Of a DNA stretch of 44,883 nt, positions 23,029 through 33,309 are shown in pieces. The translations under genes and the position numbers were made by a program. The notes below the pieces were generated by a model, which saw only the letters and a list, made by a program, of their open reading frames with translations, had not been told where the DNA came from and made no database searches. Source of the stretch: Candidatus Treponema caballi (GTDB lineage Bacteria; Spirochaetota; Spirochaetia; Treponematales; Treponemataceae); assembly GCA_018066285.1 (NCBI GenBank), contig JAGHRS010000047.1, forward strand, positions 1-44,883. The letters are read 5' to 3'. Position 1 is the first letter of the stretch. Every line of letters begins with the position of its first letter.

Positions 23029-23089
23029 TTTTCAAGTAATTGCTTTAAAATAATATAAAAAGGATTACCAAATCGGTTTGAGTTTGATT

Positions 23090-24319
23090 ATGGAAAAAAT
23101 AATTGCACTGACTAAACAATACATCGAAACTTTACTTTCCATGCATGTTACCGTTGTAGAAAACACAGAGCAGTCTGGAGAAGAATTCTTCAAAATGCTC
23201 GCGCCTCCTATGGCAGGAACATCATACAGTCCACTTTCGATTGTAGAGTATCTTTCCAAACTGAACGAAGGTATCGTCTACGATATAGAAGACTGCTTCT
23301 TCCTTAAATGGATTGCAATCCGTCTGCCTGCCGATTATACTCCTGGCAATCAGGCAACTCTTATTTTCGGACCTTTCTTCTCTACAACACCGGTAGACAA
23401 TCTCACTCAGAAAGCTCTCCTGCGCAACGGTCTTCAGGCTTCCTATACATCTCCACTCAAGATGTTCTACAACTCAGTTCCTGTCTGTGCATCAACAAAA
23501 GCCATTTCAGTTGCAAGAATCTGCATTACATCTCTTTTCGACATAGATAAAGAACCGGAATGTAAATCTGTATTCCCATTCGGTTCTGACAAACAGGTCA
23601 AGCCAACTGACTACTATGCAGAAGAAGAGAACATCTATATGGCACAGACTGAGCGCCGTTACTCTCTCGAAACCCGCATGCAGGCCGATGTCACCCAGGG
23701 TAACAGTGTCGGTGCACTCCGCACATGGCGTCTGCTCCGTGTTGAGATTGACAATGCACACCGCATTAAAGATCCGCTCAGAAACGCCAAAAACAATGCA
23801 CATATCCACAATACCATTCTCCGCAAGGCAGTTGAACGCGCATACGTCCATCCGCTGTACATCGACAGTCTGTCAAACCAGATCACCTCGATGATTGAAG
23901 CAAAGAACAGTGTTGAGGAACTGCATAAACTGCAGGAAGACTGTATCCTCGAGTACTGCAAGCTTGTAACACAGCACTCATTGGTCAAATACACTCCAAT
24001 GGTACGCCAGGCTCTGAACTACATAAACACTCATCTGAGCTCAGATATTCACCTGCCTGAGATTGCAGCTGCCATCAATGTCAGTCCGAACTATCTGTCA
24101 GCCGTCTTTAACCGTGAAACACAGTCGTCTATTTCGACATATATCAACCACCGCCGTATCGACAAGGCAATGGAACTGCTTGAGACAAGTAATGCAAGTA
24201 TTGAAGATATTGCAACATTTGTCGGATTCAGCGATATGAACTATTTCACACGTGTATTCAGAGGAATTAAGGGAGTTACACCAAGTGAGTTCCGTAAACA
24301 CGGAAAAATCACGACGTAA
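23090..24319 (+). CDS. AraC-family transcriptional regulator
   Basis: 409 residues from the ATG at 23090 (MEKIIALTKQY). The C-terminal 100 residues form the two helix-turn-helix units of AraC proteins: IHLPEIAAAINVSPNYLSAVFNRE, then ASIEDIATFVGFSDMNYFTRVFRGIKGVTPSEFRKHG. The N-terminal 300 residues have no transmembrane helix and no cupin motif I can see. The family is often built this way in treponemes, with a long helical sensory part of unknown ligand. The neighbouring RACo-like gene converges with a 2-nt gap, so no target is evident. No clear ribosome site; the upstream region is very AT-rich. Confidence 0.88.
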   Translation: MEKIIALTKQYIETLLSMHVTVVENTEQSGEEFFKMLAPPMAGTSYSPLSIVEYLSKLNEGIVYDIEDCFFLKWIAIRLPADYTPGNQATLIFGPFFSTTPVDNLTQKALLRNGLQASYTSPLKMFYNSVPVCASTKAISVARICITSLFDIDKEPECKSVFPFGSDKQVKPTDYYAEEENIYMAQTERRYSLETRMQADVTQGNSVGALRTWRLLRVEIDNAHRIKDPLRNAKNNAHIHNTILRKAVERAYVHPLYIDSLSNQITSMIEAKNSVEELHKLQEDCILEYCKLVTQHSLVKYTPMVRQALNYINTHLSSDIHLPEIAAAINVSPNYLSAVFNRETQSSISTYINHRRIDKAMELLETSNASIEDIATFVGFSDMNYFTRVFRGIKGVTPSEFRKHGKITT

Positions 24320-24321
24320 AG

Positions 24322-25482
24322 CTACGAACCGAAGTTCATCCGTTCAATGTAACGGCGGGCAAAAAAGCGGCTGTCAGCAAGCTGGATAAGCTTTCCTGAG
24401 GCCGCTATTTTTTTTGCAAGCACCTTCATCCCGTCACTTACCAAAAGCCGCGCTCCAAGTTCAGCTGCATTTCCCGCGTACCGAGCCACGGACGAAAGAC
24501 CTTCCGGAAAGAGGCCGATACGCTCAGCTTCTTCTGTATTAAGCGCGCTGCCGAAATTACCGCACAGTACAAACGAACCAACGTCACCAACAGAAAGGCC
24601 TGCTTCCTGTAACAGTGTATCTACGGCAGCTGAAACAGCGCCTTTTGCCAGTTGCAGTTGCCGGATGTCATTCTGAGCGAGCAGGAACCCGCTTTCAGAA
24701 GCTGATGACGAATCCGCGTCTTCCAAAAGCAGGCCGGTTTCATCCATCGTTCCTGCTTTCAAAAGTTCTGCAAGCATGTGTACAAGCTCAGAGCCCGTAT
24801 ATCTGCCGCCTGACACGCCGCCTTCAAAAGCAGGACCGGCCGCTGTTGAGCAGCAGGTCAGACTGAGCTTATCATAAGTTCCTGCTCCCCCTTCCTCGAA
24901 AGCAGATGAAGTAAAGAGCATAATCTCTGTGTTTGTGCCGACATCTGCGAGCAGGAGCGGGAAACGGGCTTCAGGAGCTGATATTGCATACAGCGCGGCG
25001 CATACCGCATCAGCACCAAGAAACGCATCAATGCACGGCGGGAAATACGCGGGAAGCCCAAATAACACTTCTTCTGCTTCACCAAGCGAAACGGGCGTAA
25101 ACGGCGCCATCTCAAAGCCTGAGACAGAAAGGCCGCGCACCAGATGCAGCATGATTGTGTTTCCTGTAATGATGCTCCTGGAAACTGACTCAGGCTGGAC
25201 ATCAGCTGAAACACAAAGCGCTTTGAGCATATCATGAACCTGGGAAAGCACTTTTTTCTGCAGGGGCTCAACGCCGTTATGGTGCGCATAAAGCACGCGC
25301 GAAATGACATCAAGGCCGAAAACTGACTGTGCGTTCTTTTCTGAAAGCGAAGCAAGCAACGCTCCGCTGTTTCTGTCTGATCCGGTTGCTCCGGATGACA
25401 CGAGAGACGCCTTTATCGTCGTAGTGCCGATGTCTGCAATGAAGATGATTTCGTCATTATCTGGGGATGAAAGCGCGCTCAT
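24322..25482 (-). CDS. RACo-like ASKHA ATPase (corrinoid-protein reactivator type) lacking the ferredoxin domain
   Basis: 386 residues. The ASKHA-fold motifs of the RamA/RACo family are clear: IADIGTTTIKASLV (phosphate 1), FGLDVISRVLYAHHNG, ITGNTIMLHL, LLADVGTNTEIML (phosphate 2), AAGPAFEGG, and QNDIRQLQLAKGAVSA. Full-length RACo proteins begin with a [2Fe-2S] ferredoxin domain used to reduce Co(II) corrinoid to Co(I). Here the protein starts directly at the ASKHA domain, so the electron donor would have to come from elsewhere. No iron-sulfur Cys cluster is visible. Its promoter overlaps the stop codon of the radical SAM gene upstream, and the ATG is 6 nt after the -10. Confidence 0.75.
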   Translation of the reverse strand: MSALSSPDNDEIIFIADIGTTTIKASLVSSGATGSDRNSGALLASLSEKNAQSVFGLDVISRVLYAHHNGVEPLQKKVLSQVHDMLKALCVSADVQPESVSRSIITGNTIMLHLVRGLSVSGFEMAPFTPVSLGEAEEVLFGLPAYFPPCIDAFLGADAVCAALYAISAPEARFPLLLADVGTNTEIMLFTSSAFEEGGAGTYDKLSLTCCSTAAGPAFEGGVSGGRYTGSELVHMLAELLKAGTMDETGLLLEDADSSSASESGFLLAQNDIRQLQLAKGAVSAAVDTLLQEAGLSVGDVGSFVLCGNFGSALNTEEAERIGLFPEGLSSVARYAGNAAELGARLLVSDGMKVLAKKIAASGKLIQLADSRFFARRYIERMNFGS

Positions 25483-25488
25483 GACTCA

Positions 25489-25517
25489 ACTATAGAGTGA
25501 GCATGATGATTTTGCAA
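25489..25517 (-). promoter_or_regulatory. Promoter of the RACo-like gene, inside the 3' end of the upstream gene (leaderless)
   Basis: -35 TTGCAA (25512-25517), 17-nt spacer, -10 TATAGT (25489-25494), 6 nt to the ATG at 25482. The -10 includes the TAG stop codon (25490-25492) of the radical SAM gene. Confidence 0.65.
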
Positions 25518-27217
25518 GCGGATGAGACACTTGTCCTTGAAGTAACAGATGCGCCGTCAGTTCCTCCAAAAAGGAAAAGGACAGGCGTTTCTTCAGCAGC
25601 AAGCGTTTCTAGATTCACAGAAAACACATCGTAAGCGGAGTGCGCGTACGCGAGCCGTGTACTGTGCATGTCAGCATGCTGTAAAAGAGCTGCGTGGTGC
25701 GCATCCTTGTCGTAACGGCGCACGTACCAGGATGGAAAATCAGTCACTTTCTCACGCCGGATGTAATCAAAGCGGAGTAGCTCAAGCCACACGCTTTTTG
25801 AAGCAGGAAGCGCGGCAGAAAGGAAATCATGCAGGAAATCAAACCAGAAGACAGTACGGTGCGGAGAATCGAGCGCACCTTGTTCACGGGCGCGCCGCGC
25901 AAGTTCCGAGTATAGTTTCCAGGGAGTGAATGCTGAAGTACCAAGCAGCCAGCGGAACGTGTAACTGAACGCGCCTGAGTTCCCGTACGCATCAAGCAGC
26001 TTCTCCACATCCTTTAAGAAAAGCAGGTCGTTCCAGCTCATGTCAGGCGTTTCAAGCACTTCATAGGGTGGCACAGACATCATCTTGTAGCCGTTCGTAT
26101 CCGCATACGCTTCCATCTGCGTGCCAGACAGGACTTTCAGGAAACCAAGCTGCAGCATATCCGGCGCGAGCGAGACCGCGTAATCGAACGACTGCTCAAA
26201 TTCTTTCAGGGATTCATGAGGAAGACCTGCAATGAGATCAACGTGACAGTGAATGGTCTTTGGAATGCGGCGGATTCTATCAGCAAGCTTATCCACATCC
26301 GCAGTACGTCCGACTGTTTTGAGCGTCTCCTTATGAATGCTCTGAATGCCAATCTCAAACTGCACGGCGCCTTCAGGAATTGACGGCAGCATTGCGAGCG
26401 CTTCATCAGAAAGGAACTCTGCCGCTATCTCAAAGTGGAAACGCGTCTTGCCGTTCCAGTTGTCGCGGATAAACTCCCAGATACCGATATAGCGCTTCTC
26501 ATTGAGGTTGAACGTGCGGTCAACGAACTTTACAAGCTTAACACCCGCATCCATGAAACGCTTCAGGTCCGCAAACACGCGTTCAAGCGGCATGAAGCGG
26601 ACGGTCTTATCCAGGGAAGAAAGGCAATAAGAACACGAAAACGGGCAGCCGCGGGATGACTCGTAATAAAAAATGCGGGTGTCCGCTTCTTCCTGCAACT
26701 CGGCATCAGTGTACGGAAACGGCAGTGCAGCTAAATCAGGGAAAAGAGACGGCGGGTCAAATAAGGGATGAGTCTGAATACGCTCACGAAATGATGCCGG
26801 GTCAGCGTCATACGCTTTGACGAGCTCAAGAGTCGTCTGCTCTCCCTCACCACGACTGATGAAATTGAAAGCACGCTGCTCAGCAAGCACGTTCTCAGCC
26901 TGAAAGGAAACTTCAGGGCCGCCAGCTCCTATAAGGCAGTCAGGCAGCAGCTTCCGCAGTTCAGCAGCAATCTGGTATATGATGCTGCAGTTCCAGATGT
27001 ACACGGAGAAAATGACCACGCCAGGCTTTGCTGTCGTAATCTTCCGGAGAATGTCATGCAACGGCTCGCTGATAGTGCACTCGATGAACGACAGGCGGTC
27101 TGAAGGCAAGCCGTCAGAGGAAAGGGCATTGTTCACGTACCGGCAGATTGAGCGGACAGCGAGGTTTGTGTGATTGAAACGCGAGTTGACTGCTACGAGC
27201 AGAACATTCTGCTTCAT
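25490..27217 (-). CDS. B12-binding-domain radical SAM protein, DUF4080 type
   Basis: 575 residues. An N-terminal Rossmann-like domain of the B12-binding superfamily (VLLVAVNSRFNHTNLAVRSI; GVVIFSVYIWN; IGAGGPEVSF) precedes the radical SAM barrel with CPFSCSYC as the CxxxCxxC cluster. A His-containing DxHxxG corrinoid signature is not evident, so it may not bind B12 tightly. The C-terminal 150 residues match the DUF4080 style (aromatic-rich, LELLRFDYIRREK). Reaction unknown. GAGGA lies 4 nt before the ATG. It follows the outer-membrane-type gene by 7 nt. The RACo-like gene next door gives a possible corrinoid link. Confidence 0.85.
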   Translation of the reverse strand: MKQNVLLVAVNSRFNHTNLAVRSICRYVNNALSSDGLPSDRLSFIECTISEPLHDILRKITTAKPGVVIFSVYIWNCSIIYQIAAELRKLLPDCLIGAGGPEVSFQAENVLAEQRAFNFISRGEGEQTTLELVKAYDADPASFRERIQTHPLFDPPSLFPDLAALPFPYTDAELQEEADTRIFYYESSRGCPFSCSYCLSSLDKTVRFMPLERVFADLKRFMDAGVKLVKFVDRTFNLNEKRYIGIWEFIRDNWNGKTRFHFEIAAEFLSDEALAMLPSIPEGAVQFEIGIQSIHKETLKTVGRTADVDKLADRIRRIPKTIHCHVDLIAGLPHESLKEFEQSFDYAVSLAPDMLQLGFLKVLSGTQMEAYADTNGYKMMSVPPYEVLETPDMSWNDLLFLKDVEKLLDAYGNSGAFSYTFRWLLGTSAFTPWKLYSELARRAREQGALDSPHRTVFWFDFLHDFLSAALPASKSVWLELLRFDYIRREKVTDFPSWYVRRYDKDAHHAALLQHADMHSTRLAYAHSAYDVFSVNLETLAAEETPVLFLFGGTDGASVTSRTSVSSACKIIMLTL

Positions 27218-27224
27218 TGCATCC

Positions 27225-27812
27225 TCATTTTTTCAGACGGATATAAAACGAAAGATTCCTGTCTGTGAAATTATTTCCACGGGGAACTGACCTGAAACTG
27301 ATTCCGAGTGTAGGAGCAATTCCCGTAATAAGAGCAGAAAAATCATACTCAAAAAGGAAACGATAACCATTACCCCACTGAGTTGCTGACCAATGGCCAT
27401 CCTCTTCATCAACTGTTTTATTATCCAGGAAATTACAATCCGCACGCTGTCCCGTACAATATTCACAGCCAAGAATAAGTCCGCCTAATCCGGGAGTAAG
27501 ACGTACACCGCCAGAAACACCATAATCAAGATGCAGGATTGAACTTGTTCCTTTCACGTATGAATCAAGCGTCAGATATCCCATACCGACAAAATCAATC
27601 TTTCTATCAAGCTGAATACGTGCTCCATATTCTCCGGAAATAACCAGATTAACATAACTGTCTGTCTTCAGGGTTTCATGCAATTCATCAATGGCTGGAT
27701 CTCCATAAAACAGCGCAGATGTTCCCACAGACCACAGCTGATTGATATATTCACCCGCAAAACCCATTCCGGTTACGAGTACAAAGGCAATAACTGCAAA
27801 AAATTTCTTCAT
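27225..27812 (-). CDS. Exported beta-rich protein, outer-membrane barrel candidate
   Basis: 195 residues. Signal peptide MKKFFAVIAFVLVTGMGFAG with an AG-E cleavage site. The mature part alternates polar and hydrophobic residues in segments such as YVNLVISGEYGARIQLD, VGMGYLTLDSYV, LHLDYGVSGGVRLTP and RNLSFYIRLKK, consistent with about eight transmembrane beta strands. Two cysteine pairs (GCEYC and DCNF) sit in a likely loop. Family not recognised. A -10 GATAAT is 6 nt before the ATG (leaderless type). It is the first gene of a unit continuing into the radical SAM gene. Confidence 0.65.
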   Translation of the reverse strand: MKKFFAVIAFVLVTGMGFAGEYINQLWSVGTSALFYGDPAIDELHETLKTDSYVNLVISGEYGARIQLDRKIDFVGMGYLTLDSYVKGTSSILHLDYGVSGGVRLTPGLGGLILGCEYCTGQRADCNFLDNKTVDEEDGHWSATQWGNGYRFLFEYDFSALITGIAPTLGISFRSVPRGNNFTDRNLSFYIRLKK

Positions 27813-31209: not shown

Positions 31210-33309
31210 TTATTTACCCTGTTCCTTAGCGCGCTGTTCCTTATACTTTGCAATAAGGTCATCAGATACGCTGTTTGGAACCTTTCCGTACTTCTCGAAT
31301 TCCATTGTGAACTCAGCCTTTCCCTGTGTGGAAGAGCGGAGGATTGTTGAGAATCCGAACATTTCAGAAAGAGGAACTTCTGCGTTGACAGTTGATGTTC
31401 CGTTTTCATCTGTTGAATCGATGATAACACCGCGGCGCTGGTTGATCAGACCGAACATGTTACCCTGGAACTCTGTAGGACCAGCAAGCTGAACCTTCAT
31501 GATAGGCTCCATGATAACTGGCTTTGCCTTTTCATAACCTTCGCGGAAAGCACCGATAGCTGCAATCTGGAATGCGTTATCGTTTGAGTCAACCGGATGG
31601 TACTGACCATCATTGATTGTACACTTAACACCAACGACCGGAGCTCCAATCAGAGAACCCTTTTCAAGAGCCTTCTTGAATCCCTTGTCGCAGGATGGGA
31701 TGTATTCGTTAGGAATTGCACCACCCTTAATGTTATCTACGAACTCGTAATCCTTATCAGCAATTGGCTCCATGAAACCTGCTACACGACCGTACTGACC
31801 GGAACCACCAGTCTGCTTCTTGTGTGTGTAGTTGAAGTCTGCATGCTGTGTGATTGTCTCGCGGTAAGCAACCTGTGGAGCACCTGTTGTAACTTCACAG
31901 TTGTACTCACGGCGCATACGCTCAACGTAAACGTCGAGGTGGAGCTCACCCATACCCTTGATGATTGTTTCGTTAGATTCAGGATCAACGTAGGTCTGGA
32001 ATGTCGGGTCTTCCTTCGTGAAGCGGTTGAGTGCCTTAGACATCTGGTCTGCAGCTTTCTTATCCTTTGGTGTGATAGAAAGAGAGATGACAGGGTTAGG
32101 AACGAACATAGATGTCATAGCGTAGTTTGTACCTGGTGTACAGAATGTATCACCTGATGCACAGTCAACACCGAACAGTGCGACGATATCGCCTGGAACA
32201 CCTTCGTTGATATCCTGCATTTCCTTTGAGTTCATACGGACAAGACGACCAACCTTGAACTTCTTTCTAGCACGTGTGTTGTACAGTTCTTCACCCTTCT
32301 TGATGCATCCCTGATAAACACGTGTATAGGTGAGCTGACCGTACTGACCGTCATCAAGCTTGAAGCCGAGTGCAACACAAGGCTTGTTGTCAACTGCTTC
32401 AAGTTCTACTTCAGCTTCGTTGTTGTCGAGGTCGAGAGCAACGTTCTTTACTTCTGGAGGAGATGGCAGGTAGCGTGTAACTGCATCGAGCAGTGGCTGG
32501 ATACCTTTGTTTACGTGAGCTGAACCGCAGAATACACCGACGAACTGCTCTGCAAGTGTTCCCTTGCGGATTGCAGCGTGGATCTTATCTTCTGCAACGT
32601 TCTCGTAACCGTTCTCCATGATTTCTTCCATGAGGTCGTCGTCGAACATTGAAGCAGCGTCGAGGAGTTCTTCGCGGAACTTCTCTGCATCAGCCTTGAG
32701 GTGTGCAGGAATCTCTGCGTAGCGGACATTTTCACCGTTTGGTCCGTCAAAGTAGATAGCCTTCATTGAAACAAGGTCTACAACACCTTCGAGCTTGTCT
32801 TCAAGACCAATCGGGAGTTCCATCATGTGTGCGTTAAGACCGAGCTTCTCGCTTACCTGTCTGCAAACGCGGATAGGATTTGCACCCTGGCGGTCACACT
32901 TGTTTACGAATGCAACGCGAGGTACATGATAGCGCTTGAGCTGGCGGTCAACAGTGATTGACTGTGACTGAACACCTGCGACAGCGCAGAGAATCATGAT
33001 AGCGCCGTCGAGAACGCGGAGAGAGCGCTCAACTTCTACTGTGAAGTCAACGTGACCGGGTGTGTCGATGAGGTTGATTGTGTAACCCTTCCATTCTACC
33101 TGGGTTGCTGCTGACTGGATGGTGATACCTCTTTCCTTTTCCAGTTCCATGTTATCCATAACAGCACCAACACCATCTTTACCACGAACTTCGTGAATAG
33201 CGTGAATCTTGTTGCAGTAGAACAGGATACGTTCAGAAGTGGTTGTCTTACCGGAGTCAATGTGGGCGCTGATACCGATATTTCTCATTTTGGAAATATC
33301 AATGCTCAT
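31210..33309 (-). CDS. fusA: Elongation factor G, mitochondrial-like spdEFG1 type
   Basis: 699 residues. GTPase that drives tRNA-mRNA translocation on the ribosome. G1 is AHIDSGKT (15-22), followed by [19 protein letters not shown] and NKCD. The N-terminal stretch ([46 protein letters not shown]) is much closer to human mitochondrial EF-G1 than to E. coli EF-G (which has 'AHIDAGKTT' and 'GAATMDWM'). That is the mark of the spirochaete/planctomycete spdEFG1 group. These species carry a second EF-G specialised for ribosome recycling, which is not in this window. GAGAGG lies 8 nt before the ATG. It precedes the RecA-like gene. Confidence 0.93.

Follow-up and report, generated by a model that had tools for sequence, protein, structure and literature searches.

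A RACo-family ATPase without a ferredoxin domain as the proposed reactivator of a truncated methionine synthase in Candidatus Treponema caballi

The stretch of 44,883 nucleotides analysed here (the window) comes from contig JAGHRS010000047.1 of Candidatus Treponema caballi and contains a gene for a compact RACo-family ASKHA ATPase that has no Fer2 domain. Sequence comparisons suggest that its product probably serves as reductive activator of the genome's B12-dependent methionine synthase (MetH), which is truncated, and acts with a separate low-potential electron donor. The features of the locus are listed in Table 1. The original prediction placed this gene and its neighbour at the correct coordinates and on the correct strands. 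It proposed that the two might form a corrinoid-linked system with a separate donor. A separate donor is implied because the ATPase has no electron-delivery domain of its own, but the pairing with the radical-SAM neighbour did not survive.

Table 1. Features of the RACo locus in the window.
Feature	Position	Strand	Basis
AraC-type regulator, convergent with RACo	23078..24319	+	sequence match
Compact RACo-family ASKHA ATPase without Fer2, 386 aa, proposed reactivator of MetH	24322..25482	-	Pfam Raco_middle and RACo_C_ter, AlphaFold model
Site of about 30 missing C-terminal-domain residues, RACo residues 221-226	24805..24822	-	RACo alignment
Phosphate-1-type motif of the ASKHA ATPase, RACo residues 17-22	25417..25434	-	D17, G19, T20 and T21 without variation across the 53 rows of the RACo alignment
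B12-binding/radical-SAM DUF4080 protein, 575 aa, probably outside the system	25490..27217	-	Pfam, neighbourhood comparison
195-aa protein, signal-peptide-like start by eye	27225..27812	-	homologous gene ahead of RACo at 13 of the 44 loci from relatives

In Pfam searches, the 386-residue protein matched Raco_middle (PF17651, residues 16–165) with 100.8 bits against a gathering score of 26.8, and RACo_C_ter (PF14574) with 111.6 bits against 27. Neither Fer2 nor any domain besides these two was found at E values up to 1, in agreement with the prediction that the protein starts at its ASKHA domain. The frame is open over 387 codons, which is the ORF plus one codon, and 7 bases separate the gene from the radical-SAM gene upstream on the same strand; therefore, no N-terminus has been missed in frame. 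A tblastn search of the window with 12 Fer2-bearing N-termini as queries (E 1e-3) revealed no hidden Fer2 remnant. The cysteines are scattered (residues 90, 150, 161, 210, 211, and 307), and they do not form an Fe-S cluster domain. The protein is shorter than its Fer2-bearing relatives, as would be expected if the gene were decaying or mis-called and 5'-truncated. This explanation is extremely improbable, because the frame is intact, the structural model is confident, and the architecture recurs in a whole clade of the RACo tree described below.

The AlphaFold model (pLDDT 89.9, pTM 0.91) is most similar to residues 179–621 of canonical RACo (3ZYY chain Y, 3zyy_Y), with a Z score of 42.3, an rmsd of 3.7, 365 aligned residues, and 30% identity. 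The second match was 4C1N (4c1n_I, Z 35.8), and further entries scored about 16. As modeled, the window protein has a RACo-type ASKHA fold. Residues D17, G19, T20, T21, N108, D180, G182–N184, A214–G221, G308, and G311 are invariant across a 53-row RACo alignment; therefore, the ATPase site looks intact. The middle and ASKHA domains and the ATPase motifs are common to the window protein and 3ZYY. However, canonical RACo has its Fer2 and linker ahead of about residue 179, a part without any match in the window protein. The C-terminal domain of the window protein is also about 30 residues shorter, and the proposed client is different. The deletion in the C-terminal domain follows the AAGPAFEG stretch. 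It corresponds to 30 alignment columns that are filled in at least five of seven other RACos and empty in all eight compact RACos, including that of the window, and positions 38–74 of RACo_C_ter are unmatched between the two Pfam matches of the window protein. This internal loss was overlooked in the original prediction.

The curated scores for AcsV (NF040756, 122.8 bits versus 800) and RamA (TIGR04270, 56.8 bits versus 500) were not reached. The RACo/Ram-RACE domains and fold are present while an Fe-S domain is absent, so the window protein is a member of the domain family and not a canonical RACo. The clusters of RamA are located at the C-terminus. The earlier statement that canonical RACo and RamA proteins need an N-terminal [2Fe-2S] domain was too broad, as ATP-driven corrinoid activators are described as containing either one [2Fe-2S] or two [4Fe-4S] clusters (PMC6739815).

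The genome contains a single PF14574 gene and neither a second nor a full-length RACo. Its only match to the cap domain (PF02607) is MetH, and its three matches to the B12-binding domain (PF02310) are MetH, the radical-SAM protein of the window, and another radical-SAM protein. MetH consists of 849 residues and is encoded after metF (302 aa) on a contig other than that of RACo; by their coordinates, RACo and metH are not adjacent. Pfam assigned homocysteine, pterin, cap, and B12 domains to this MetH, and no PF02965 reactivation domain. Nor was an activation domain found anywhere in the genome with PF02965 or with A4, a stronger profile of separate activation proteins of about 210 residues. With one cap match, one RACo, and no activation domain, MetH is the main candidate by elimination and most likely the corrinoid client of the window RACo. 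RACo can have other clients, since 8 of the 48 RACo genomes of the family have no MetH-sized frame (a shorter or cut cap match in six, none in two). No riboswitch was found at the window, where only a tRNA was seen, and 15 RACo or MetH loci gave no Rfam matches.

The distribution of the two kinds of reactivator was surveyed in 145 genomes of the family by profile search. RACo was found in 48 genomes, always with a score over the cut-off. At E 0.001, PF02965 matched in 47 genomes (30 over the Pfam cut-off and 17 under it). RACo and PF02965 occurred together only in G002, which has two MetHs, one fused to an activation domain and the other of the RACo type. Among the 94 genomes with a MetH-sized protein, defined as a cap-domain protein whose frame spans 750 residues or more, 39 had RACo only, 46 had PF02965 only, 1 had both, and 8 had neither (Fisher p 5e-17, with no correction for kinship). 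In the 43 genomes without a cap match, RACo was present in two (74% and 51% complete) and PF02965 in none. Profile A4, applied to 20 genomes, detected an activation protein in three of the eight genomes with neither (G008, G094, and G141) and in G040, and in none of the 11 RACo genomes. Five genomes are then left with neither. In G058 the MetH frame reaches the contig end, and its sequence clusters with fused MetHs. G073 and G081 (74% and 59% complete) have an Act-type MetH, and no reactivator was found in them. G068 (80% complete) has a RACo-type MetH with no RACo and no activation domain detected. G022 (99% complete) also has a RACo-type MetH, and neither RACo (two profiles) nor an activation domain (PF02965 and A4) was found; it is a real exception to the association.

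The same division runs through the genus of the window. G008 and G054 have a metF-act-metH arrangement, and G000, G028, G039, G047, and G061 have RACo together with a different MetH lineage. The PF02965 domain, which is fused to MetH or forms the separate protein of about 210 residues (encoded by a gene flanked by metF and metH in genomes such as G008 and G054), thus has the same proposed job and niche in sister genomes as RACo. It is a SAM-binding domain and not an ASKHA ATPase. As no redox centre remains in the compact RACo and an internal segment has been lost too, the ATPase might have been reused for a non-redox purpose, such as chaperone-like cobalamin loading or remodelling of MetH. We consider such reuse improbable. 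The near-exclusive swap of the activation domain for RACo points to an identical job, and MetH would otherwise be left without a known route of reactivation.

The phylogeny of MetH was calculated with FastTree from 62 sequences rather than from all 94 genomes; these were L071, L124, and 60 loci selected from the survey. A single clade of 35 rows with full support contained all 32 rows from RACo-only genomes together with the second MetH of G002 and those of G022 and G068. No Act-only row fell in this clade. Both kinds of MetH were found within each of the genera g1, g3, g4, and g13. The FastTree phylogenies of MetH and RACo carried long-branch warnings. A single-gene EF-G tree of 54 rows, calculated with IQ-TREE in quick mode, stood in for the species tree; 7 of 61 genomes were dropped for want of a usable orthologue, and two partial sequences were kept. 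The EF-G of the window's own genome groups with another genus. At least 10 changes between RACo and Act were counted on this tree, and 6 of 10 contrasts lay on well-supported branches. In these six independent contrasts, on average RACo tracked the MetH lineage in 5.6, with no opposing case (median sign-test p 0.031), and Act was opposite to the RACo-type MetH lineage in 5.8 of 6 on average. MetH lineage and reactivator switch together within treponeme genera.

The 575-residue neighbour of RACo has B12-binding, Radical_SAM, and DUF4080 domains that all exceed the Pfam cut-offs, and it retains CxxxCxxC and, as had been noted in the original prediction, lacks DxHxxG. The absence of DxHxxG does not mark the protein as unusual, since B12-radical-SAM enzymes usually have no such motif. 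No NCBIfam model reached its cut-off among the 25 matches listed of 39. TokK and CysS match the sequence over the B12-binding and radical-SAM parts, and the neighbour differs from them in having the DUF4080 C-terminal domain. A literature search for DUF4080 found no paper.

The 7-base gap and the common strand would fit a two-gene system in which RACo activates this adjacent protein, and a radical-SAM gene of similar kind adjoins RACo in L226 (Lachnospiraceae), 1 of the 80 best-matching named loci. However, the L226 genes are in divergent orientation and the RACo there bears Fer2. Furthermore, no DUF4080 radical-SAM gene was found (phmmer, E 1e-10, fetched flanks) in the RACo loci of 44 relatives, which represent 44 of the 47 other family genomes with RACo. 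In the same-genus genomes G039, G047, and G061, a pfkB-type gene (identified by Pfam for G039 only) stands between a protein of about 186 residues and RACo; the pairing was therefore rejected. An AraC-like gene lies beyond RACo in these three genomes (likeness judged by eye from the N-termini). DUF4080 (PF13311) matches occur in 71 of the 145 genomes (67 over the cut-off) against 48 for RACo, including RACo-less genomes such as G008, G054, and G004. A similar radical-SAM gene is located beside metF-act-metH in G013, the sole case among 62 MetH loci; this adjacency and that in L226 may be due to chance. A functional pair is highly improbable, and the radical-SAM neighbour is probably a bystander that is present by chance. 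Of the two findings that together would have refuted the original prediction, one was made, as the pair is not conserved, and the other was not, as no full-length RACo exists elsewhere in the genome.

With MetH as the client, the reaction would be triggered when its cob(I)alamin is oxidised by accident and cob(II)alamin is formed. The window's ATPase would bind to the cap/B12 region of MetH, and ATP binding and hydrolysis would raise the potential of the Co(II)/Co(I) couple. A separate, soluble donor of low potential, in all likelihood a ferredoxin, could then reduce the cobalamin. The Fer2 domain tethered to canonical RACo serves as its final electron relay, and for the window protein this relay would act in trans. 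We infer both the activation of MetH and the nature of the donor. Flavodoxin was also considered as a donor, and it was dropped because no Flavodoxin_1 (PF00258) protein was found in the genome.

Several precedents bear on this scheme. DUF4445 proteins were reported to cofit with MetH lacking PF02965 (Price 2018, PMC5764234). These RamA-like reactivators of Phaeobacter and Desulfovibrio likewise combine DUF4445/RACo_C_ter with a PF02965-less MetH, but the Phaeobacter protein has a ferredoxin domain (PMC5764234) and the window protein has none. A DUF1638 (PF07796) partner belongs to the alphaproteobacterial form of that system. Reactivation of MetH by a RACo-type protein with a ferredoxin domain was already described in that work, and the absence of Fer2 is what is new here. 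No description of a Fer2-less RACo-type protein was found in a literature search that left subscription journals largely outside. The Acetobacterium activating enzyme with ATP shifts the corrinoid potential from −530 to −250 mV (PMC6739815); a potential raised in this way would come within reach of ferredoxin-type donors. The assay of RamQ uses ATP together with Ti(III) citrate (PMC8604678). However, the binding of RACo reportedly lowers the potential of CoFeSP, while the activating enzyme raises that of its client (PMC6739815). This difference argues against a uniform mechanism, and the potential-shift step is unsettled even for canonical enzymes.

The same source describes the activator of ATP-driven systems as an Fe/S protein in all known cases and the coupling of its ATP use to cobalamin reduction as incompletely understood (PMC6739815). 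If our proposal is true, a cluster-less activator would separate the ATP-driven step from electron delivery, and with such a natural activator both steps could be tested apart. The proposal would also supply a probable client for the gene, which might otherwise be taken for a methyltransferase accessory or a radical-SAM accessory.

The loss of the relay was followed across RACos by scoring the N-terminal cysteine motif in ORFs; Pfam was run on the window protein, L091, L110, and L235 (without Fer2), and L223 and L257 (other N-terminus) only. Of the 48 family RACos, 36 are without a Fer2-type motif and 12 have one. This count combines 43 proteins classified jointly (7 with Fer2 and 36 without) with G018, G041, G042, G055, and G056, whose Fer2 motifs were scored individually, that of G042 in a separate frame. 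G076 was 'other' by motif and was counted as Fer2-less since tblastn gave no Fer2. A CxxCxxCxxC motif is present in a short N-terminal stretch of 12 of the 36 Fer2-less proteins. Hidden or frameshifted Fer2 was not detected by tblastn at 26 non-control loci, which include 17 of the 35 Fer2-less loci of the family besides the window, and the Fer2-bearing positive controls (L089, L113, and L246) all matched.

For named RACo loci, the best 80 matches listed, a biased sample, gave 68 usable proteins after removal of nine without a RACo ORF of 250 residues, two repeats (G039 and G047), and one more that lacked the motif; the ORF caller retains the longest of overlapping frames. A Fer2-type motif was scored in 60 of the 68, four cysteines in 3 (Lachnospiraceae), no motif in 3, and another domain in 2. 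The 'none' score of L198 is unsafe because its locus begins at a contig end, and L189, scored as Fer2, has only a short cysteine-rich N-terminus. A FastTree phylogeny of RACo with 111 rows places the window protein in a compact clade of 7 rows inside a Fer2-less clade of 32 rows. Some members of genus g3 and two Clostridia (L214 and L220) lack Fer2 as well; this scatter indicates that Fer2 was probably lost more than once.

A split RACo, in which a dedicated partner Fer2 protein binds in trans and supplies the electrons, could account for the missing domain as well. The genome has two Fer2 matches, one of which is a reductase-like protein of 399 residues with a C-terminal Fer2 (nature judged by eye), and a RamA-like gene split in two was reported in one genome (Price 2018, PMC5764234). 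However, both Fer2 genes are on contigs other than those of RACo and metH, and the second encodes a 162-residue protein beside xanthine-dehydrogenase-like genes (by eye). No Fer2 sequence was found by tblastn in the window or at the 26 loci, and the neighbours with a loose cysteine pattern in L077, L090, L100, L101, and L114 look unrelated by eye. A dedicated partner is therefore unlikely, although less so than the other alternatives. In the preferred reading, the donor would be a separate one of general use. We give even chances to the further idea that the ASKHA ATPase alone shifts the potential of the MetH cobalamin and any suitable soluble donor gives the electron, the relay having been reduced within this family from Fer2 to CxxCxxCxxC in some lineages and lost altogether in others.

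Two RACos have a different N-terminal domain. The ASKHA part of L257 is joined to a domain similar to the MetH activation domain (hhalign probability 93.7), and the N-terminal domain of L223 is only weakly similar to it (40.6). These fusions hint at a link between ASKHA and MetH activation.

A gene for a protein of about 295 residues with a PSLH motif was found in 29 of the 62 MetH loci, mostly immediately 3' of metH, and all 29 of these loci fall inside the 35-row clade of RACo-type MetH. The protein appears PAP2-phosphatase-like by eye; a Pfam search with two of its members gave no family above the cut-off. Two family genomes, G000 and G028, are absent from its matches among the 62 loci.

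For G022, a genome that is 99% complete and encodes RACo-type MetH, searches for RACo and for the activation domain were both empty. Two clostridial proteins are fusions, in which a part resembling the MetH activation domain and cysteines precede the ASKHA domain of RACo. The hhalign probability of likeness to the activation domain was 93.7 for the N-terminal part of the L257 protein and 40.6 for L223, and the Pfam search gave no name for the domain ahead of ASKHA in either protein. In genus g15 (G032, locus L119, and G042, locus L120), a RACo bearing Fer2 adjoins not MetH but a small corrinoid protein (PF02607, about 215 residues) and, in G032, a gene for 348 residues that is methyltransferase-like by eye. 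The RACo frame is broken in G042.

Features discussed in the text and their positions
Feature	Sequence	Positions	Strand	Source
Protein with signal-peptide-like start, ~186-227-aa family	window	27225-27812	(-)
EF-G gene	window	31210-33309
Fer2-bearing RACo and small corrinoid protein	L119	1498-4939		G032
ASKHA fusion protein	L257	4272-6239		Clostridia
ASKHA fusion protein	L223	4362-6137		Clostridia

Thirteen of the 44 relatives' loci encode, ahead of RACo and in the same orientation, a protein of about 186-227 residues whose start resembles a signal peptide, as does the window. The radical-SAM protein of the window (25490-27217) matched the candidate-defence model PDC-M51A with 112 bits, probably because of B12/radical-SAM domains in common. 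In the EF-G tree, the window EF-G clusters with genus g4 and not with its own genus, g1, and its identity is 88% to G107 and 86% to G039. Gene transfer is a possible origin of this grouping.
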